Shown here piece after piece: positions 7,910 through 20,351 of a DNA stretch of 64,000 bases. The DNA lies in the NCBI GenBank assembly GCA_023269585.1, contig JAHFTC010000006.1, positions 1 through 64,000 of the forward strand. The letters run 5' to 3'. Source of the stretch: Opitutaceae bacterium. GTDB taxonomy: Bacteria; Verrucomicrobiota; Verrucomicrobiia; Opitutales; Opitutaceae. The notes under the pieces are model-generated. The model did not search any database and was not told where the DNA came from. It was given only the letters and a program-made list of their open reading frames with translations. The position numbers and the translations under genes were made by a program. Within the stretch, counting starts at the first letter, position 1, and the number at the start of each line of letters is the position of its first letter.

Positions 7910-8767
7910 ATGAACACCACCCGCACCTCTCCTCTCTCCGGCAAGGTCGCCGTCATCACCGGCGGCGGCGGCATCCTCTGCGGCGCCATGGCGCGCGCCC
8001 TCGGCGCCGACGGCGTGAAGGTCGCCATCCTCAACCGCACCGCCGCCAAGGGCGAGGCCGTGGCCCAGGCCATTCGCGACGCCGGCGGCGACGCCCTCTC
8101 GCTCGCCGCCAACGTCCTCGACCGCGCCTCCCTCGAGGCCGCGCGCGCCGAGATCCAGCAGCGCTGGGGCGGCGTCGACATCCTCCTCAACGGCGCCGGC
8201 GGCAACCACCCGCGCGGCACCACCGCCACCGAGACGTGGCAGGGCGCCTCGCCCACCGCCGTCACCACCGGCCCGGGCAGCTTCCTCGACCTCGACGAGG
8301 CCGGCTTCCGCGCCGTCTTCGATCTCAACTTCATGGGTACGCTCCTGCCCACGCAGGTGTTCCTCCCGCTCCTCCTCGGCCGCCCAGGCTCGACCGTCAT
8401 CAACGTCTCCTCCATGGGCGCCTACCGCCCCATGACGAAAGTCCCCGCCTACTGCGCCGCCAAGGCCGCGCTCAACAACCTCACCAACTGGATGGCTGTG
8501 CACTTCGCCGAGGCCGGCCTGCGCGTCAACGCCATCGCCCCCGGCTTCTTCTCCACCGAGCAGAACAAGGCCCTGCTCTGGAACGCCGACGGCTCGCCCA
8601 CGCCGCGCGCCAAGAAGATCGTCGACCACACACCCATGCGCCGCTTCGGTAAACCCGAGGAGCTCGTCGGCGCCCTGCGCTGGTTGTGCGACGACAAGGC
8701 CAGCGGTTTCGTCACCGGAGCTGTGATACCCGTCGACGGCGGCTTCTCCGCCTACGCCGGGGTCTGA
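7910..8767 (+). CDS. uxuB: SDR-family oxidoreductase, probable D-mannonate oxidoreductase (B. subtilis UxuB/YjmF type)
   Basis: SDR motifs 'VAVITGGGGILCGAMA', 'ILLNGAGGNHP', 'YCAAKAALNNL'; directly downstream of uxuA. Confidence 0.83.
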   Translation: MNTTRTSPLSGKVAVITGGGGILCGAMARALGADGVKVAILNRTAAKGEAVAQAIRDAGGDALSLAANVLDRASLEAARAEIQQRWGGVDILLNGAGGNHPRGTTATETWQGASPTAVTTGPGSFLDLDEAGFRAVFDLNFMGTLLPTQVFLPLLLGRPGSTVINVSSMGAYRPMTKVPAYCAAKAALNNLTNWMAVHFAEAGLRVNAIAPGFFSTEQNKALLWNADGSPTPRAKKIVDHTPMRRFGKPEELVGALRWLCDDKASGFVTGAVIPVDGGFSAYAGV

Positions 8768-9878: not shown

Positions 9879-10385
9879 ATGGATCCGGAGACGCCCAACT
9901 TGGTCGCGTTGTTCGAGGAGGAGGAGAGCGGACTGCTGCGCTACGCGCTCGGTCTCGCCGGCCGCCGCTCCGTGGCCGAGGAGCTCGTGCAGGAGGCGTT
10001 TCTCCGCCTCCACCAGTCGTGGGGCGAGGTCGAGAACCCGCGCGCCTGGCTCTACCGCACGGTCCGCAACCTCGCCCTCAACCACCTGCGCGACCACCCC
10101 CACGAGGCCGAGCTCGATCCCGACGCCGCCCCGGTCGACGAACGCCCCGCCGCCGAGCGGCTCGGGCGCGACGAGGCCGTCGGTGCCGTCCGCCTGCTGC
10201 TCGCCGAGCTGCCGGCGGGCGACCGCCAGCTCATCCACCTCAAGTACCACGAGGAACTCCAGTATCGGGAAATCGGACGCCGCACCGGCCTGAGCGCCGG
10301 CAACGTCGGTTTCCGTCTCCACCACCTCCTCAACACGCTGGCCGACGGCCTCCGCCGCGCCGGCTTCGAAGGAAGCGAGGGTTAA
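9879..10385 (+). CDS. RNA polymerase ECF-type sigma factor
   Basis: Region 2 'LVQEAFLRLHQSWGEVENPRAWLYRTVRNLALNHLRD', region 4 'LKYHEELQYREIGRRTGLSAGNVGFRLHHLL'. Confidence 0.9.
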   Translation: MDPETPNLVALFEEEESGLLRYALGLAGRRSVAEELVQEAFLRLHQSWGEVENPRAWLYRTVRNLALNHLRDHPHEAELDPDAAPVDERPAAERLGRDEAVGAVRLLLAELPAGDRQLIHLKYHEELQYREIGRRTGLSAGNVGFRLHHLLNTLADGLRRAGFEGSEG

Positions 10386-10388
10386 GCC

Positions 10389-13124
10389 ATGAACCACGAG
10401 CACAACGCTCCCACTTCGCCCCCGCCCGCCGACCCCGAGCTGGAGGCGCGCATCGTCGCCTGGGTCCTCGGCGAAGCCGCCGCCGCCGAGATCGCCGCGC
10501 TCGAGCCCCTTGTCGCCGCCCGCCCCGAACTCGCCGTCTTCAAACGCCGGATCGAGGCCGTCCACGGTCTCGTCGCCGCAGCCGCCCGCCCCGACGCCGC
10601 ACCGCTCCGCCTCGCCCCCGCCCGCCGCGCGAAACTCCTCGCCACCCTCGCCTCCGCCTCTGCTGTAGCCGGGGGCGCCGCCCCCGGCCAAAACACTCCC
10701 GCGCCGAAGAAATCCAACGTCCTCCCGATGCCGGACCTGAAGAAGGTACGTCGCAAGGACCGCCAATGGCTCTTCGCCATCGCCGCCTGCTTCGTGGTGA
10801 TGCTGATGCTCGCGGGAATCCAATTGGGGACCGCGGAGAAGACCTTCTCGGGGTCGCAGGCGCAGATTTACCGGATCCGGCAGGAGGAGGAAGTGACTGC
10901 AAAGCGCCGACTTCAAATGACTGAGAGTGCCCGCGCTTCCCAGGTCGCTGCGATGGAATTGGCTGAGCTGAAAGCCGCCTCCGAGGCAGATGTGTCCCGT
11001 CTTCGGAGTATGGCGGAGGATTCGTCTGTTCTCCGCCGTGACGTTCGGAGCGAGGCCGGTTGGACTGACAGCGCCGTTCCTGCAGGTTCGCCCAACGAGC
11101 GCGTTTACGGAGCACTCAAATTCTCCCCTTCGGTTTCCCGCCAAGGTAAGGCCCGCGAGTTCTCAGCGGCGCCGGCGTCACCCGAAAAGCAGGAGGAAGA
11201 GGTCGTCACCCTCTCGCCATTCCAGGTCACTGCCTCCGAGACCGTAGGCTACTCTGCGTCCACCACCCTTGCCGGCATCCGCCTCAACACCGAGCTTAAG
11301 GATATCGGCTCCGCCATCACCGTCGTCACGCCCGAGTTCCTCAAGGACGTTGGCGCCACCGAAGCCAAGTCTGCGCTCCAGTACTCTGGCGGTGTGCCGC
11401 CCGCAGCCCAGCGCGACGATTTCCTCTCCAAACGCAAAGGTGGCCGCACCGCATCGGCTGCCCCCGTCGCGCTCGGCGGCCTCGGTGGCCTCGGTGGCGA
11501 CAAAGCTACCGACAAAGACGAGGAGATCGTCGTCCTCTCGCCCTTCGAGGTCACCAAGGACACGAGCTTCCTGAAGGGCAACCGCCCCCTAAAGAAGCCC
11601 AAGCGCCCCGATCCTTCGGCGACCTCCTTCGGCATGGGGCCAGGCGGTCTCAACGCCGATCAGGCTCTCCAACCCGCCCCGTCCACCCCGTCCACCGCGT
11701 CCACCCCGTCCACTTCGTCCACCCTGTCCACAGGCGCCACCCCCGCCGCCGGCGACCAGCCTTTCGCCAAGAAACCCGCCGCGCCGCCGCCCACCGCCGA
11801 CGAGGTCAGCGCCGCGCAGGAGCCCGTCTCCACGTTCTCCCTCCACGTGAGCGACGCCTCCTTCAAGCTCGCGCTCGCCGCCCTCAACTCCGGCAGCCTG
11901 CCCGAACCCGGCTCGATCCGCCCCGAGGAATTCTACAACGCCTTCGACTACGGCGATCCCGCGCCGGCCGCGGGCGAGCCGGTCTCCTGCCGCGTCGAGC
12001 AGGCCGCGCATCCCTTCGCCCAACAGCGCAACCTCGTGCGCCTCGCCGTGCGCGTGCCGGCCACCGGCCGCGGCGCCGGCACCCCGCTCCGCCTCACCGT
12101 GCTGCTCGACACCTCCGGCTCGATGGAGCGCCCCGACCGCCGCGCCGCCGTGCGCGCCGCGCTCGCCACGCTCGTCGGCCTGCTCGGCCCGAACGACCGC
12201 CTCACGCTCGTCGGTTTCGCCCGCCAGCCGCGCCTGCTCGCCGAGGCATTCGACGGCAACCACGCCAGCCAGGCGCTCGGCCTGCTCGACCGCACGCCCG
12301 CCGAGGGCGGCACCAACCTCGAGGAGGCGCTCAAGCTCGGCGGCGAGCTCGCCCGTCGCCATTTCGCGGCGACTGCGCAAAACCGTATCGTCCTCCTCAC
12401 CGACGGCGCCGCCAACCTCGGCGACGCCGACCCCGAGCGCCTCGCCGCCGCCATCGAGTCGCTGCGCAGCCAGCGTATCGCCTTCGACGCCTGCGGCGTG
12501 GGCCTCGAGGGCATCGACGACGACATGCTCGAAGCGCTCACCCGCAAGGGCGACGGCCGCTACTACGTGCTCAACTCGCCCGAGGCCGCCGATGCCGGCT
12601 TCGCCCGCCAGCTCGCCGGCGCGTTCCGTCCCGCCGCCGAGAACGTGAAACTCCAAGTGCGTTTCAACCCCGCGCGCGTCGGCCGTTACCGTCTCGTGGG
12701 TTTCGAGAAACACCGCCTGCGCGAGGAGGATTTCCGCAACGACGCCGTCGACGCCGCCGAGATCTCCTCCGAGGAGGCCGCCGTGGCCGTGTACGAAATC
12801 GAGGCCCTCCCGCAGGGCGAAGGCGAACTCGGCGAAGTCTTCGTGCGTTTCCGCGATCCCAGCACGCGAACGATGGTCGAGCGCTCGTGGACGCTGCCCT
12901 ACGAGCCCCGCGCCATCGCCTTCGACCGCGCCTCGCCCAGTCTCCAACTCGCCGGCACCGCCGCCGCGCTCGCCGTGAAACTCCGTGGCGGGCCCGCCGG
13001 CGACCGCGTCGACCTCGACGCCCTCGCCCCCGTCGTCAACGCCCTCCGCTCCCGCCGCCCCGACGACCAGCGCCTCCAGGATCTCGCGACACTGTTCGAG
13101 CACCTCCGGCGGATGAAGAAATGA
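10389..13124 (+). CDS. VWA-domain protein with anti-sigma-like N-terminus and an embedded TonB-plug-like segment
   Basis: 'LTVLLDTSGSMERPDRRAAVRAAL' MIDAS motif; C-terminal YfbK/DUF3520-like region; plug-like 'VVTLSPFQVTASETVGYSASTTLAGIRLNTELKDIGSAITVVTPEFLKDVGATEAKSAL'. Confidence 0.88.
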   Translation: MNHEHNAPTSPPPADPELEARIVAWVLGEAAAAEIAALEPLVAARPELAVFKRRIEAVHGLVAAAARPDAAPLRLAPARRAKLLATLASASAVAGGAAPGQNTPAPKKSNVLPMPDLKKVRRKDRQWLFAIAACFVVMLMLAGIQLGTAEKTFSGSQAQIYRIRQEEEVTAKRRLQMTESARASQVAAMELAELKAASEADVSRLRSMAEDSSVLRRDVRSEAGWTDSAVPAGSPNERVYGALKFSPSVSRQGKAREFSAAPASPEKQEEEVVTLSPFQVTASETVGYSASTTLAGIRLNTELKDIGSAITVVTPEFLKDVGATEAKSALQYSGGVPPAAQRDDFLSKRKGGRTASAAPVALGGLGGLGGDKATDKDEEIVVLSPFEVTKDTSFLKGNRPLKKPKRPDPSATSFGMGPGGLNADQALQPAPSTPSTASTPSTSSTLSTGATPAAGDQPFAKKPAAPPPTADEVSAAQEPVSTFSLHVSDASFKLALAALNSGSLPEPGSIRPEEFYNAFDYGDPAPAAGEPVSCRVEQAAHPFAQQRNLVRLAVRVPATGRGAGTPLRLTVLLDTSGSMERPDRRAAVRAALATLVGLLGPNDRLTLVGFARQPRLLAEAFDGNHASQALGLLDRTPAEGGTNLEEALKLGGELARRHFAATAQNRIVLLTDGAANLGDADPERLAAAIESLRSQRIAFDACGVGLEGIDDDMLEALTRKGDGRYYVLNSPEAADAGFARQLAGAFRPAAENVKLQVRFNPARVGRYRLVGFEKHRLREEDFRNDAVDAAEISSEEAAVAVYEIEALPQGEGELGEVFVRFRDPSTRTMVERSWTLPYEPRAIAFDRASPSLQLAGTAAALAVKLRGGPAGDRVDLDALAPVVNALRSRRPDDQRLQDLATLFEHLRRMKK
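10665..10688 (+). repeat. class A GTAG hairpin inside the VWA CDS
   Basis: GTA-GCCGGGGGCG-C-CGCCCCCGGC; shares gctgtagccgggggc with the IDH element. Confidence 0.72.
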
Positions 13125-13376
13125 ATGCTCGCTCTCACACGCCTGCGGGTGGCCCCGGTTGCCCGCAAGCGCGCCACTCTCTCCCGTGGCGTGGCCACTC
13201 CGATATGACATTTCCCTGACAAACCCCTGACCCCCGCCTGACGACTTCGCACGCCGCTTGTGCGACAATCACGCACCGCTCCAGCTCCGTCGTTTCTTCC
13301 TCTTCGCCTCACGTCACCCGGACCGTCCTCGCCGCGGCCGGCACCAGCCCCAATCGCTTTCAATCCAAGGCATCCC

Positions 13377-16300
13377 ATGCACGCCAACGCCTCGCTCGGT
13401 TCCTCCATCCTCCCGCGGTTCCGCCTCCTGCCCCTCGCCGCCGCGTTCCTCTTCGCCGGCGCGCTCGCCGCCGCGCCAAAACCGGCCGACTCCGCCAAAG
13501 CCTCCACCTCGCTCACCCCCGAGGGCGGCCGCATCGTCGTCGACGTGCAGGGCGTGCCGCCCGCGGTGCCGCTCTTCTTCTCCGCCGTCGCCGAGCAGAC
13601 CGTGCGCCTCAGCTCCGCCGAGATCGCGGGCGAACTGCGCCTGAAACTCCACGTCGTGCAGGGCAAGCCCGAGGTGCTCTCGCTCGGCCTCAGCGGCGAC
13701 GGCGAAGTGGTGGACGTCACCGGCGCCGGCCTCGCCTCGTGGGCCGTGCGCCAGTTGCCGGGCGGCAAACGCTTCCTCGACCTCCGGCCCGCGCTCGCGC
13801 CGGGCGCCGCGGCACCCAGTGATTTCGATCTCGTGGTGCGCACCCGGCTCAGCAAACCGGCCGTGCCCGGCACCACGTCCGTGCTCATCGCCGCACCCGG
13901 CGACGCCGTGGGTTTCGCATCCACGATCACCCTACAGGCCGATGCCGCCCTCGATCTCCGCGTGACCGGGGCGATCAGCCTTGTCGCTCTCGGCGAGCCG
14001 CGCGGCCCGCGCGATCCCGTGCGCTTCCAGACCACCGGCGCCGGCGCGCTGATCGTGCGGCTCACCGCGCGCGGCGCCGCTCCCGCCGAGGCCGAGCTCC
14101 TCGGCGCGCTGCTCACCGGCAGGATCAACGAGGCGGCCAAGAGCGCGGAGTTCCGCCTGCGCGGCCAGTTGCGCTCCACGAAGGTCGGCGCGCGCCTCCA
14201 CCTGCTCACCGGTGCGGCCGCACCAAGCGAAAAGGCCACCGGCGACGGTTGGCACCTCGAACTCGCGCCGGCCGACAGCCCGTTCCGCGGCTACGAACTC
14301 GTCACCGAGCGCGAGGGCACGCTCGCCGTCGATCTTCCGTTCGCCGCCGCGATCCGCGAGACGGGCGAATGGCGCGTGCTTGATTTTTCGATGCCGGCCG
14401 GCGTGGTCGTGCCGCTCCAGCTTGAAGGACTGCCAGCCGGCGTGAGTTTCGACCCCGAACGCCCGGTGCTGCCCGTCGCCACCGCGCAGGGCTGGCAGGG
14501 CTTCCTGCCCGCCAACGGCGCCACCGCGCTCGCCTGGAAGCACCAAGCCAAGGCCGCCGAGGGCACGCTGTTCTTCACCAGCAGCGAGCAGACCGATTCG
14601 CGCCTCGGCGCCGGCTTGCTGCGCCAGGAGGCCAACCTCGAGTTGCGCATCCTCCAGGGGAAACTCACCGCCTTGCGCATCCGACTCGAAGGCCCGGGCG
14701 AAATCGTCGGCGTCGAGGGCGCCAACCTCGTGAACTGGAAGGTCCTGCCAGCCGACGGCGCCCGCGTGCTCGAGGTGCAGTTCAGCCGCCCGATCGAGCA
14801 GACCAGCTCGCTCACCGTGCGCAGCCAGACCGAGCTCGGCGGCTTCCCGATCCGCGTCGAGCCGCTACGGCTCGTGCCCGAGGGTGTGGTGCGCCACTCC
14901 GGCTTCGTGCGCGTCGCCAACGACGGCGCGGTGCGTCTCGAGGTGGCCGATGTCGCCGGCATGATGCAGCTCGCCCCCGAGCAGTTCCCCGCCGGCGAGC
15001 TCGACGACGAAGAGGTGCGGCAGACCTTCGTGTACCGTTTCCCGGCGGCGAACTACGGATACCGCCTGCTCGCCTCCCAGATCCAGCCGGAGGTCGGCGT
15101 CTCCGCCATCCTCACCTACGGCCTCGGCGAAACCGACCGCACCATCGCCGCCAGCCTCGAGCTCGACGTGCGCGAGGCGCCGTTGCGCGACTGGTCGTTG
15201 CAGATCCCGGCCGACTACACCGTCGTCGGCGTGACCGGCCAGGACGTCAGCGATTTCAACGCCGAGTCCACCGCCGTCGACGGCCACCGCACGCTCAAGG
15301 TGCTTTTCGGCGAACCCGTCGAGGGCCGCCAGTTGCTGCAGCTGCGCCTCGAGAAGAACCAGGCCGCCGCCGCGGGCGAATGGCGGTTGCCGGCGCTGCG
15401 GTTCCCCGGGGCGAAGTCGGTGCGCGGCCATATCGGGGCCGTGGCGACACCCGGTTACCGGCTCGTGCCCGCCGGCGTCGACCAGCTCGTCGAGGTGCCG
15501 TTGAGCTATTTTCCGCAGCAGACCACCGGCCTCCAGCAGGCATGGCGCCTGCGCGACGCCGAGTGGTCCGCCGCGCTCAAGGTCGAGGCGCTCGGCCAGA
15601 GCGTGCAGGCGGATGTGTTCCACCTCTACACCGTGAAGGAGGGCGTGGTCTACGGTAGCGTGCTGTTGAACTACTTCGTCGTCGGCGCGCCCGCCACCGA
15701 GTGGCGCCTCTCCGTGCCGGCCGAGGCGGGCAACATCGACGTCACCGGCCAGAACGTCCGCCGCGACTGGCGCCGCGAGGGCGACCAGATCGTCGTCTCG
15801 CTCCACCAGCCCGTGCTCGGCGCGGCGACATTGCTCGTGACCTTCGAGCAGCCGATGAGCGCCCGCGGCGGCGTGATCCAGCCCGGCCAGGTGCGCCCGC
15901 TCAACGTCCAGGCCGAGCGCGGCTACGTGCAGGTGGTGAGCCCGGCCCAGGTGAAGCACGAGATCCGCCAGGCCGAGGGCGGTCTCCTGAAACTGGAGCC
16001 ACTGGAGCTGCCCGCCGAGTTTCGCCTGCTCGCCAGCGCGCCGTCGCTCGCCATCTACCAATACACCGCCCGGCCCTTCGCGCTCGAGGTCGGCGTGGAA
16101 TGGTACGTCGCCGGCGAGACCGTCGACCAGGTCGTCGATTTCGCGAAGCTCTCCAGCCAGATCTCCCGCGACGGACAGGTCGTGACCGACGCCCAGTTCT
16201 TCGTGAAGACCCGCGGCCGCAAGGCCCTCCGCCTCGAGCTGCCCGCCGGCGCCAAGCTCTGGGAGGCCCGTGTCGACAACGAGATCGTCAACGCCCGCGC

Positions 16301-19300
16301 CGACGGCGGCCAGACCCTCGTGCCGCTGCCCGCGCGCCTCAATCCCAACGACCCGGTCGCCGTCGCCCTCCGGCTCGGCCAGCCCGCCACCGGCAGCGCG
16401 ACCATCCGGCTCGTCGCGCCGCGCACCCTCGCCCCGAGCGTCATCAACGAGTGGTCGATTCATGGCGACACCGGCCGGCAGCTCGTCCCGCGCGGCGGCA
16501 ACGCCGAGCTCGTCCGCCCCGCGCTCACCGAGACCGGCTTCGAGTGGATCGCCGAGCGCGGGCTGTTTTCCTCGGTGCTGCTCTTCGGGGTCACCGCACT
16601 CGCGGCGCTGCTGGCGCGCGGTTCCTCGCGCCGGCAGTTCTTCGCCGCGGTGCTCTTCGCCAACGTGTCGCTCGCGGCGCTGTTCGTCGCCGCGAGCTCG
16701 TTGGTCGAACGTCGCCCGAATCTCCAGTCGCTCACCTACGCCGCGACGATGGTGCCGACCGGCGAAAGCGTGACGATCAACGTCGCCAACCAACCCCCGC
16801 TGCTCGCGATGGTCTCCTGGTGGGGCGTGGTCGCCGCGTTGATCGGAGTGGCCGTGGCGCTGGTCGCGCACCTGCGGCGCTTCCCGGTCGCGCTTGCCGC
16901 TGGTGCGGCGCTGGCCGCAGGCGGGCTGCTCGCGCAACACGGCGGCGCCGCGCTCTTCTACGCCGCCGCCGGCATCGCGGTCTGGCTGCTCCTCCTCCTG
17001 CCCACCTTCAACCGCTGGAACGAGGACCGCCGCGCGGCCCAGCTCGCCTCCGCCGTGCCGCCTCCTCCGCCCTACGACGAACCCGCCCGCGCCGGCCCCG
17101 CCTCGGTGCTCCCGTTGCTCACGTTGGCCGGCCTGTGCGGCCTCGGCGGCTTCGCCCCGCCCGCCCACGCCCAGGACGCCGTGCAACAGTCCGCGCCACC
17201 CGCGCCCCACATCCAGTTTGTGGACAAGCCCGCCCAGTCCGCCGTGCAGACGTGGACGATCCGCGACGACCGCCTCTACGGCGAGTTGGAGCTCACCGTG
17301 CGCGGCGGCCCCGGCGACAGCTTCCTGCTGCTGCGCCCGCCGGCGGTGCTGACCGAGTTCAAGGCCGACGGTCTCCGCCTCGGCAAGGCCGAGAACAGCG
17401 GCCACCAGACCTCCTACTATGTCGCCCCCGAGCGCGACGGCCTGCTCACCGCCCGCGTGCGCTTCGAGCTGCCGGTGCCGAAGGGCACCAGCCAGCTCGC
17501 GCTGCCCACCGGCCCGGCGGCGACCCAGCGCGTGACGGTCGCCCTCGACCAGGGCGGCTGGGAGTTCTTCTCGCCCGCCGCGGTGCAGGTGCTTCCGACT
17601 CCGAATCTCGGAGACGGTCGCAGCGGTGCCACGCTCGTGCTCGCGCCGCAGAGCGACCCGGTCGTGCACCTGCTGCCGAAACGCCGCGACCTCGCGAACG
17701 AGGCGACGCAGTTCTTCGCCGAGACCACGCAACTCTTCCTCCCCGGCCCCGGCGTGGTGAACGCCCGCGTCGTCGTCTCGATCCGCCCGGTACAGGGCCG
17801 CGTGGGCTCGCTCACGCTCGACGTGCCCGCCGGCCTGACCATCGGCGAGGTGAAGGGCGAGGACACCGAAGTCTCCTCGTGGCGTTTCGACCCGGCGCAG
17901 CGCCGCCTGCAGATCACGCTCGCTTCGCCGCAGGAGCGCCAATTCCACGTCGGCATCGTCGCGCAGCTCGGCACCGGGGCGTTGCCGTTCGAGCTCACGC
18001 TCACGCCGTTGCGGGTGGTCGGCGCCGCCGGCGATGTTGGCATGGTCGCGCTCGCCTTCGGCGGCGACGCGCAGCCGGAAAGCGTGCGCGCCTCCGGTTT
18101 CTCCACCGTGAATACGGAGGACTTCGATTCCGACCTATTGCCCGAGGAGAACGACGACGAACCGGCCGCGACGCTGCAGCACGTGTGGCGCTTCGGCCAG
18201 GGCGGCGGCAGCGTTTCGCTGAAGATCGCGCCGGTCGCGCCCGAGGTGCGCGTCGTCGGCCGGCAGGTGATCTCGCTCGACGACGACCGCATGGTGATGG
18301 CCGTGGATCTCGCCACGGCGATCACGCGCGTCGGTCTGTTCAAACTCAGTTTCGCGCTGCCCGCCGGCCTCGAGGTCGAGGCCCTCAGCGGCGAGGCGCT
18401 CAGCCACTGGACCGAGGCGACCGAGGGTAACCAGCGCATCGTGACGCTGCACCTCAACGGCCGCACCATCGGCGACCAGCAGTTCGCCGTCACGCTCGCC
18501 GGCGCCGCGCCCCGCGCCCAGGACGCCTGGCCGATCCCGCACCTCCAGGTGCGCGAGGCCACGCGCCAGACCGGCGAGGCGCTCGTCGTGCCCGGCAAGG
18601 GCCTGCGCCTGCGCGCCGTCGAGCGCGAGAAGGTCACGCAACTCGACCCGCGGCAGGTGGGCGGCCTGCAGCCCGGCACGCTGGCGTTCCGGTTGTTGCA
18701 GGAGGACTGGTCGGTGAAGCTCGGTATCGAAGCGTTGGAGCCGTGGATCACCGTGCAGTCGCTGCAGGAGACCACCGTGCGCGAGGGCCAGACGCTCGTG
18801 CGCCTCGGCCTGCGCTACCGCGTGGAGAACGCCGCGGTGAAACAGTTCCGCGTGAAGCTGCCCGGCCTCGGCGAGGAACGCGCCCGCACCGTGCGCGCCA
18901 CCGGCACGACCGTGAGCGACATGGTGCGCGTCGCCGGCAGCGACGACACCTGGGAGATCCGCCTGCAACGCGGCGTCGCCGGCGAGACCGATGTGCAGAT
19001 CGAGTTCCAGGGACCGTCCTCGGGCGACCAGAAACTGGAGACGGTTGCGGTGCCGGAGTTCGTGGGCGCGCGGCAGGCGGTGCAGTTCGCCGTCGTGCGC
19101 GCCGGCGGCCGGCTCGAGCTCGAGACCGGGGCGCTGCCGCGCGGCTGGACGCGCGCCGACTGGAGCGCGGTGCCCGCGTTCCTCCAGAGCCGCACCGACC
19201 GCAGCGTGCCGGCGTTGTGCTTCCGCGTGGCCGAGGCCGAGGGCCCGCTGCCCGTGACCGTGCGCCGGCACGAGGTGGCCGAGGCGCTCAAGCTCCGCGT

Positions 19301-20351
19301 GACGCAGGGCGAACTCATGACGCTGTTCTCGCCAGTGGGCGAAAGCCTCACCGCGGTGGACCTGCGCGTCGACGTGCTCGAGAAGAGCACGCTGCGCGTG
19401 CGGTTGCCCGAGGGCGCGAAGCTCTTCAACACGTTCGTCAACGGCGAGAGCGTGGCGGTCGTGCGCGAGGGCGACGCGTTCCTCTTCCACGTCACGCCCG
19501 CCGCCGCCGGCGAGCGTTCGGCCGCGGTGCGGCTGGTGTACTCGGCCCCCGGAGACAAGGGCGGCGCGGTCGCGCTCGCCGGCCCGCGGCTCAACGTGCC
19601 GCTGGAGAACGTCTCGTGGCGGGTGGTCATCCCACCCGGCTACACGCTCGCCAGTTACGGCGGCGGACTGCGGCTCCAGGAGGCGCGTTCCGGCGGGTTC
19701 TTCGACGTCTCCGACTACCAGTCGTCGATCGTCTCGAAGCGTTCAGCCGACTCGAAGAAGGCCGTGGCGATGCTGCAGGAGGCGAATTCGCTGATGCAGA
19801 AGGGCGACCAGCAGAAGGCCAGCGAAGTGCTCACCCGCGCCTACAACACGCAGGCGCTCGACGAGGCCGCCAACGAGGACGCCCGCGTGCAGCTCCGGAA
19901 TCTGAAGACGCAGCAGACCGTGCTCGGCCTCAACACCCGCCGCCAGCGCCTCTACCTCGACAACCGCAGCGACGCCGCGCGCAACGAGCAGCTCGAGCAG
20001 GCGGCCAGCCTGAATCCGTTCATGCAGGGCAAGGTCAACTTCGACCCCTCGCAGGTCGACCAGATGCTCATGGGCAACTCGGCCGACGAGAACACCGCCC
20101 TGCGCGGCATCGCCGACCGCCTCGTGGACCAGCAGCTCGCCGCCGAGCCCGCCCCGCGGGCGCTCGACGTGACGCTCTCCGAACGCGGCCGTGTGCTCAC
20201 CTTCACCCGCAGCCTGCAAGTCGAGGGCGACAAGCCGCTCCAGCTCACGCTCGACGTCACCCGCACCGCCCGCCCGCCCTACGCCACCGCCGCGATGCTC
20301 CTGCTCGCCGTCGCCGGCATCGCCGCCATCCCCCTCGCCCGGCGGAGGTAA
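13377..20351 (+). CDS. very large (about 2,324 aa) exported, membrane-anchored beta-rich protein of unknown function
   Basis: Single uninterrupted frame; signal peptide 'LLPLAAAFLFAGALAAA'; TM cluster around 16.56-17.01 kb; C-terminal TM 'AAMLLLAVAGIAAIPLARRR'. Confidence 0.85.
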   Translation: MHANASLGSSILPRFRLLPLAAAFLFAGALAAAPKPADSAKASTSLTPEGGRIVVDVQGVPPAVPLFFSAVAEQTVRLSSAEIAGELRLKLHVVQGKPEVLSLGLSGDGEVVDVTGAGLASWAVRQLPGGKRFLDLRPALAPGAAAPSDFDLVVRTRLSKPAVPGTTSVLIAAPGDAVGFASTITLQADAALDLRVTGAISLVALGEPRGPRDPVRFQTTGAGALIVRLTARGAAPAEAELLGALLTGRINEAAKSAEFRLRGQLRSTKVGARLHLLTGAAAPSEKATGDGWHLELAPADSPFRGYELVTEREGTLAVDLPFAAAIRETGEWRVLDFSMPAGVVVPLQLEGLPAGVSFDPERPVLPVATAQGWQGFLPANGATALAWKHQAKAAEGTLFFTSSEQTDSRLGAGLLRQEANLELRILQGKLTALRIRLEGPGEIVGVEGANLVNWKVLPADGARVLEVQFSRPIEQTSSLTVRSQTELGGFPIRVEPLRLVPEGVVRHSGFVRVANDGAVRLEVADVAGMMQLAPEQFPAGELDDEEVRQTFVYRFPAANYGYRLLASQIQPEVGVSAILTYGLGETDRTIAASLELDVREAPLRDWSLQIPADYTVVGVTGQDVSDFNAESTAVDGHRTLKVLFGEPVEGRQLLQLRLEKNQAAAAGEWRLPALRFPGAKSVRGHIGAVATPGYRLVPAGVDQLVEVPLSYFPQQTTGLQQAWRLRDAEWSAALKVEALGQSVQADVFHLYTVKEGVVYGSVLLNYFVVGAPATEWRLSVPAEAGNIDVTGQNVRRDWRREGDQIVVSLHQPVLGAATLLVTFEQPMSARGGVIQPGQVRPLNVQAERGYVQVVSPAQVKHEIRQAEGGLLKLEPLELPAEFRLLASAPSLAIYQYTARPFALEVGVEWYVAGETVDQVVDFAKLSSQISRDGQVVTDAQFFVKTRGRKALRLELPAGAKLWEARVDNEIVNARADGGQTLVPLPARLNPNDPVAVALRLGQPATGSATIRLVAPRTLAPSVINEWSIHGDTGRQLVPRGGNAELVRPALTETGFEWIAERGLFSSVLLFGVTALAALLARGSSRRQFFAAVLFANVSLAALFVAASSLVERRPNLQSLTYAATMVPTGESVTINVANQPPLLAMVSWWGVVAALIGVAVALVAHLRRFPVALAAGAALAAGGLLAQHGGAALFYAAAGIAVWLLLLLPTFNRWNEDRRAAQLASAVPPPPPYDEPARAGPASVLPLLTLAGLCGLGGFAPPAHAQDAVQQSAPPAPHIQFVDKPAQSAVQTWTIRDDRLYGELELTVRGGPGDSFLLLRPPAVLTEFKADGLRLGKAENSGHQTSYYVAPERDGLLTARVRFELPVPKGTSQLALPTGPAATQRVTVALDQGGWEFFSPAAVQVLPTPNLGDGRSGATLVLAPQSDPVVHLLPKRRDLANEATQFFAETTQLFLPGPGVVNARVVVSIRPVQGRVGSLTLDVPAGLTIGEVKGEDTEVSSWRFDPAQRRLQITLASPQERQFHVGIVAQLGTGALPFELTLTPLRVVGAAGDVGMVALAFGGDAQPESVRASGFSTVNTEDFDSDLLPEENDDEPAATLQHVWRFGQGGGSVSLKIAPVAPEVRVVGRQVISLDDDRMVMAVDLATAITRVGLFKLSFALPAGLEVEALSGEALSHWTEATEGNQRIVTLHLNGRTIGDQQFAVTLAGAAPRAQDAWPIPHLQVREATRQTGEALVVPGKGLRLRAVEREKVTQLDPRQVGGLQPGTLAFRLLQEDWSVKLGIEALEPWITVQSLQETTVREGQTLVRLGLRYRVENAAVKQFRVKLPGLGEERARTVRATGTTVSDMVRVAGSDDTWEIRLQRGVAGETDVQIEFQGPSSGDQKLETVAVPEFVGARQAVQFAVVRAGGRLELETGALPRGWTRADWSAVPAFLQSRTDRSVPALCFRVAEAEGPLPVTVRRHEVAEALKLRVTQGELMTLFSPVGESLTAVDLRVDVLEKSTLRVRLPEGAKLFNTFVNGESVAVVREGDAFLFHVTPAAAGERSAAVRLVYSAPGDKGGAVALAGPRLNVPLENVSWRVVIPPGYTLASYGGGLRLQEARSGGFFDVSDYQSSIVSKRSADSKKAVAMLQEANSLMQKGDQQKASEVLTRAYNTQALDEAANEDARVQLRNLKTQQTVLGLNTRRQRLYLDNRSDAARNEQLEQAASLNPFMQGKVNFDPSQVDQMLMGNSADENTALRGIADRLVDQQLAAEPAPRALDVTLSERGRVLTFTRSLQVEGDKPLQLTLDVTRTARPPYATAAMLLLAVAGIAAIPLARRR

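Follow-up and report, generated by a model that had tools for sequence, protein, structure and literature searches.

Receptor N-terminal segments in the linkers of VWA-type probable anti-sigma factors and A2M proteins of Opitutaceae: candidate TonB-docking modules

The periplasmic linker of a VWA protein of 911 residues, encoded by an uninterrupted open reading frame at positions 10389-13124 of the window (the whole stretch of 64,000 nucleotides of an Opitutaceae genome that was analysed), includes a segment that by sequence is the N-terminal fragment of a TonB-dependent receptor (TBDR). It comprises a putative TonB box and the opening third of a plug, and is not a plug domain. Similar fragments occur in the linkers of related VWA proteins, where capture of receptor starts is required by the module phylogeny to have happened at least five separate times. 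The data come mostly from draft genomes of one bacterial family, and all features of the window described below lie on the forward strand. A PHROGs scan gave nothing useful.

Architecture of the sigma-linked VWA protein

Only 3 nt separate the VWA gene from an upstream ECF sigma factor gene (9879-10385; Pfam Sigma70_r2 2.2e-14, Sigma70_r4_2 5.4e-09), and a homologue of this sigma gene lies directly 5' of most VWA homologues checked. The pairing is also found in Rhizobium and Azotobacter. The YfbK-type proteins of Rhizobium bangladeshense and Azotobacter chroococcum plasmids share the vWF_A-VWA-YfbK_C series and a single hydrophobic segment, and the sigma gene overlaps or abuts the VWA gene upstream; in contrast to the protein described here, their linkers contain neither a box nor a receptor-like segment. 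On the 3' side, the sigma-VWA pair is directly followed in Opitutaceae and Verrucomicrobiaceae loci by a gene for a giant protein, which in the window is 2363 residues long (13260-20351); of the close-group loci with downstream DNA present, most have its homologue next after the VWA gene. Its product matches no Pfam family above cut-off.

The first 93 residues (10389-10667) are predicted to form a cytoplasmic four-helix domain resembling anti-sigma domains (AlphaFold2 helices at residues 16-26, 32-44, 46-66 and 77-93; pLDDT up to 97). With this domain folded alone, 17 of 18 Foldseek matches in the PDB are anti-sigma domains, including MucA, a SigK-bound anti-sigma, RslA, ChrR and RsiW; each is weak (E 0.64-9.7), and it is the agreement among them that suggests an anti-sigma function. 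The domain has no Pfam match in this protein; three of 17 members give a weak zf-HC2 match, and in a paralogous branch (L119) a zf-HC2 anti-sigma zinc finger is weakly matched at the equivalent position. A single predicted transmembrane helix follows (residues 122-147, 10752-10829; an AlphaFold2 helix over the hydrophobic stretch WLFAIAACFVVMLMLAGIQL). This topology, with its anti-sigma-like structural matches, does not fit the VWA surface protein proposed in the earlier note. Beyond the linker lie vWF_A (PF12450; residues 473-551, 11805-12041; Pfam 2.1e-15), a VWA domain with a DxSGS motif (residues 570-732, 12096-12584; VWA_2 1.7e-14, VWA 4.8e-13), for which the Foldseek list consists mostly of VWA folds, and YfbK_C (PF12034, formerly DUF3520; residues 747-893, 12627-13067; Pfam 3.8e-25). 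Their order, with all three above curated cut-offs, identifies a YfbK-type VWA protein. From the sigma linkage, the transmembrane helix and the anti-sigma-like N-terminal fold, the protein is probably a single-pass membrane anti-sigma factor that restrains the adjoining ECF sigma factor.

Among its closest parallels are the cell-surface-signalling anti-sigma factors FecR, PupR and FoxR, which share with it an adjoining ECF sigma gene, one transmembrane helix, a periplasmic part tied to the vocabulary of TBDRs and, probably, a cytoplasmic anti-sigma domain. The STN domain is the domain through which known anti-sigma factors and receptors communicate (PMC11637429). Two relatives (L019 and L049) have STN/FecR_C-like matches in the slot otherwise occupied by the receptor-derived module (STN 3.6e-06 and 3.5e-08). 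The present protein differs in that the sensor part is vWF_A-VWA-YfbK_C and that the putative TonB box and plug start of a receptor replace STN; Pfam detects no periplasmic STN or FecR_C in it. A search for A1-type receptors found no cognate receptor nearby, the only match on the contig being the module itself.

The receptor-derived module and its neighbours in the linker

The periplasmic linker (residues 148-471, 10830-11801) is mostly disordered, with pLDDT below 50 at residues 198-268 and 319-469, and hypervariable between orthologues; between congeners it cannot be aligned save for the module and pieces of the tail. A donor search for residues 143-268 found no convincing source. The module (residues 269-352, 11193-11444) consists of a box, a linker and the first third of a plug. 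Its clear part, residues 269-332 (11193-11384), is 68-69% identical to the N-terminus of a TBDR of the same genome (L002; E=9.1e-26), and a receptor-derived HMM scores the module at about 6e-26, a likeness well beyond chance. The earlier note had correctly traced the segment to the N-terminal linker and plug start of a TBDR; its peptide is in frame at 11193-11384, the start at 11191 given there being out of register.

The putative TonB box EEEVVTLSPFQV (pattern VVxLSPFxV) aligns with the box position of receptors at 32-35 bits, a sequence criterion, and the linker motif is GYxAxxTLAGxR. The box-region peptide is EEEVVTLSPFQVTASE, and the 20-mer that contains the box, EEEVVTLSPFQVTASETVGY, has a counterpart in the receptor. 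Moreover, a profile of box and plug-start segments also matches solved siderophore receptors (best E 1.5e-05). Receptors of the set carry an equivalent box between an optional STN domain and the plug (for example L129), as do characterised receptors (PMC9249621, PMC11637429), and we infer the TonB box label from this position and from sequence.

The Pfam Plug family (PF07715) aligns with the module over positions 2-37 of 107 only, at 14.6 bits against a cut-off of 23.9, and AlphaFold orders it poorly (pLDDT about 41-67). Thus profile searches, a kind of check that the earlier note had suggested, returned a strong receptor-derived match and a Plug score below cut-off, and the idea of a plug domain or ligand-sensing module is not supported: only about one third of a plug is present, and many relatives keep the box alone. 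The stated lack of a β-barrel holds, Pfam finding only vWF_A, VWA and YfbK_C downstream of the module. Up to 69% identity links the protein to TBDRs over the box, the linker and the plug's first third; unlike them it has neither a complete plug nor a β-barrel, and an inner-membrane anchor takes the place of the outer-membrane barrel.

A second partial copy of the receptor linker, also reported earlier, was placed at residues 377-400 (11517-11588) as a second putative TonB box, DEEIVVLSPFEVTKDTSFLKGNRP (box score 35.0 bits), which is kept in the G010 orthologue. That orthologue (L011) has a frameshift in its C-terminal part at about position 8200, possibly an assembly error or a sign of a pseudogene. 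A third borrowed piece, absent from the earlier note, is a segment resembling a Pal tether (residues 402-423, 11592-11657; KKPKRPDPSATSFGMGPGGLNA). It is identical at 20 of 22 residues to the mature N-terminus of a Pal-type lipoprotein of the same genome, whose best match is TIGR02802 Pal (1.4e-24, below the curated cut-off); amino acid identity is 91% and nucleotide identity with the lipoprotein gene 0.74. Both congeners hold a segment related to the Pal tether. A Pal-like piece in the A2M of G010 was not significant.

Distribution, origin and fate of the captured segments

When each of 81 VWA linkers was compared with 500 shuffles of its own sequence, 28 contained a TonB box that no shuffle equalled. 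About a third of the homologues thus carry the segment, so that, in answer to the survey question of the earlier note, it is not a feature of all those adjoining ECF sigma genes. Many VWA relatives retain just the box of 8-14 residues. When 1440 ORFs were scanned for the box, matches beyond receptors, VWA proteins and A2M proteins amounted to a stray handful. The receptor-derived HMM was run over seven related genomes; among the matches read, the only non-receptor carriers were YfbK-type and other VWA proteins, A2M proteins and VIT-VWA-receptor proteins, two apparent exceptions (166 and 281 aa) being frameshifted receptors.

Among 20 A2M genes, nine exceed the box threshold set for the VWA linkers, and in 15 a V-x-L-x-x-[FY]-x-[VIA] box can be recognised by eye just 5' of the A2M domain. 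Within these proteins the borrowed module comes after the bait-region domain and ahead of the A2M domain. G014 has an A2M with the full module; in that of G002 the plug piece is larger and of another type (Pfam Plug 24.0 bits, above cut-off), and it is identical at 47 of 86 positions to a receptor of the same genome. These A2Ms share the module with the anti-sigma protein; they differ from it in having a protease-trap architecture and no sigma linkage. In the A2Ms of Bacteroides finegoldii (L219) and Parabacteroides distasonis (L220), the sequence ahead of the A2M domain looks by eye like a SusC-type start (VMIRGGGVQKKAAMTGSVASRS; EIVIRGYGSSNR), a similarity that is not statistically significant. 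The Bacteroidales A2M peptides NEIVIRGYGSSNR and DGVMIRGGGVQKKAAMTGSVASRS also resemble the start of SusC-type receptors by eye, a likeness without statistical support in the comparison with receptors (the only annotated receptor match had E=7).

Whole receptors are fused in frame to VIT-VWA proteins in three genomes: L098:1272-6998 (G000, C165; 1909 aa), L093:703-6468 (G056; 1922 aa) and L245:2278-6315 (G008; 1346 aa). The VIT-VWA halves of the G000 and G056 fusions are 65-67% identical and the receptor halves 34.5%; the latter are of different receptor types, each nearer to other receptors, which indicates that the VWA-receptor link was made more than once. Other contents of the linker slot were also observed. 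Hundreds of residues of autotransporter-type PATR repeats fill it in L017, L021 and L027, whose genomes are without the receptor type searched. The captured segment of L190 (G086) includes an EF-hand-like stretch, DRNHNGRLDPDE, before the module; receptors of that genus (L117) likewise have such a stretch ahead of the TonB box.

The origin of the modules is well delimited. In a BLASTP comparison of the VWA linkers with 47 receptors, 20 linkers matched. Every match fell in the interval from -37 to +88 relative to the box, and none of the 20 linkers matched a barrel, although the barrel makes up most of each receptor. The position of all 20 matches rules out random capture of any receptor piece. 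The module tree forces at least five gains, with 0% of bootstrap trees giving a single origin, which supports the domain shuffling considered in the earlier note. Among three congeners, module dS is 1.0-1.9 and that of the VWA core 0.25-0.5; a module dS above core dS implies replacement of the module later than the species split. Together, the tree and this excess of dS rule out one ancient graft passed down along with the VWA gene. The nearest receptors of the modules are usually in the same genome or genus. All 23 box-positive linkers are in genomes with at least two receptor-type matches, against 16 of 27 box-negative ones, a threshold set after the data were seen.

Selection on the module after capture is likely. 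In the G061 and G086 orthologues the module aligns gap-free at 76% identity, with a dN/dS of 0.23 (0.20 for the anti-sigma domain), whereas the flanking linker regions are 38% and 10% identical with dN/dS of 0.45 and 1.05; the argument comes from this one orthologue pair, with module dS near saturation. Between modules and their nearest receptors, dN/dS is 0.10-0.40 where dS is unsaturated, a value that includes time spent within the receptor. However, modules are broken in several relatives (L013, L014, L018, L064, L080) and lie on longer terminal branches than receptors, both signs of relaxed constraint.

Possible roles of the borrowed segments

Our preferred reading, quite possible if still short of probable, is that the module is a TonB-docking peptide that couples the activity of Ton, and perhaps also of Tol, to sigma control. 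A role as TonB client is plausible since the part retained is the putative TonB box. Known TonB boxes form a β-strand on TonB, and the signalling domain of FpvA binds its own TonB box (PMC9249621). The captured box would similarly add as a β-strand to the C-terminal domain of TonB, and the PMF-driven Ton motor would bind or pull the anti-sigma linker; pulling may alter its exposure to proteolysis or shift the anti-sigma domain, and sigma release would thereby be coupled to the load on the Ton system or to its availability. TonB binding, force and signal are what we infer here, beyond the architecture and the repeated capture. Since TonB is in the same membrane as the anti-sigma protein, the geometry would be unlike that of receptor pulling. 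In the genome of the window (G000), 24 TonB_C domain matches were found, candidate partners for the box and far exceeding its roughly seven receptors of the type searched; they include matches in C83, C52, C118, C25 and C37, some with tandem domains (at least four in a frame of 411 aa, three in one of 464 aa).

Docking on TonB would account for the taking of box and plug start only, for the box alone often being enough, for the module tracking the receptors of its own lineage with donor receptors needed, and for the STN domain in the same slot of some relatives. Against it, two thirds of the homologous linkers are without a box, as are the YfbK-type proteins of Rhizobium and Azotobacter; several modules are broken and on long branches; and the PATR repeats and Pal tether found in that slot are not TonB-specific. 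The tether is not the known Tol-binding part of Pal, so that this segment may represent general outer-membrane mimicry and not Tol docking. It may also tie the linker to the outer membrane or to the Tol-Pal state; TolA binds TolB by strand addition, as TonB does on TonB boxes (PMC7391070). A more general proposal is that such segments are portable TonB docking modules, the box and plug start of a cell's own receptors being copied repeatedly into anti-sigma factors and A2Ms and whole receptors being fused to VIT-VWA proteins, and that Ton, with Tol perhaps joining through the Pal tether, would act mechanically and directly on both gene regulation and a periplasmic protease trap. Taken as a whole this is tentative and on balance unlikely.

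Disordered linkers that tolerate insertion might instead collect, overwrite and lose pieces of exported proteins without any function, numerous receptor genes with a conserved box seeding ectopic recombination. The varied foreign content of the linkers (plug starts, PATR repeats, STN, TPR, the Pal tether), the often broken modules on long branches and only where donor genes exist, and the replacement implied by the dS values are as expected from such neutral capture. It leaves unexplained why a barrel piece is absent in 20 of 20 cases, why unrelated A2M and VWA proteins share the module with no other protein in the genome-wide search, and why many linkers hold on to the box alone; the conservation of the module against its flanks in G061 and G086, and a Pal segment 91% identical in amino acids but only 74% in nucleotides, also speak against it. 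We regard neutral capture as a rather doubtful explanation.

Alternatively, the borrowed N-termini could mimic exposed tails of outer-membrane proteins that are recognised by a protease or chaperone in the periplasm. In the anti-sigma linker such a decoy would offer a cleavage site reporting outer-membrane-protein traffic, at a place where regulated cleavage is expected; in A2Ms, where cleavage of the bait region triggers the trap (PMC9352918, PMC8267569), it would be bait for proteases attacking receptors, and the position of the module in A2Ms, given above, is in keeping with this. A decoy would also take in the Pal tether, a segment with no role in TonB docking, and accounts for A2M and Pal better than TonB docking does. 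However, it explains neither why conservation is best in the short box nor why whole receptors are fused to VIT-VWA, and it points to no particular protease; we consider it unlikely.

A graft that takes on a plug fold and serves as a ligand sensor is very improbable: the larger plug piece in the G002 A2M, above the Pfam cut-off, is in its favour, but here the coverage of the Plug family is partial, no barrel is present, and the score below cut-off with low AlphaFold confidence leads us to reject a folded sensor domain. A fusion of two genes by assembly or gene calling, conceivable given a source assembly of 216 contigs and a congener frameshift further downstream, is refuted by the intact frame and by many independent genomes, the single-contig G003 among them, in which this architecture recurs.

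TonB boxes outside receptors are known from colicins, which reach the cell from without and exploit its TonB; the putative box described here is instead carried by a regulator of the cell itself. To our knowledge, the TonB box has been little studied in Verrucomicrobiota, and a literature search with mainly open-access coverage found no report in which VWA proteins, A2Ms or VWA-type anti-sigma factors are linked to a TonB box or plug. If the module is a TonB client, the clients of Ton would extend beyond receptors and imported toxins to the cell's own regulators, and the question of how a cell gauges its Ton load would be answered directly. The independent captures, never including a barrel, amount to a natural experiment on the minimal receptor N-terminus for TonB recognition. 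Should they be neutral, the captures would still show with unusual clarity how fragments pass in frame from a large gene family to unrelated envelope proteins. The borrowing suggests a previously undescribed wiring between nutrient uptake and gene control.
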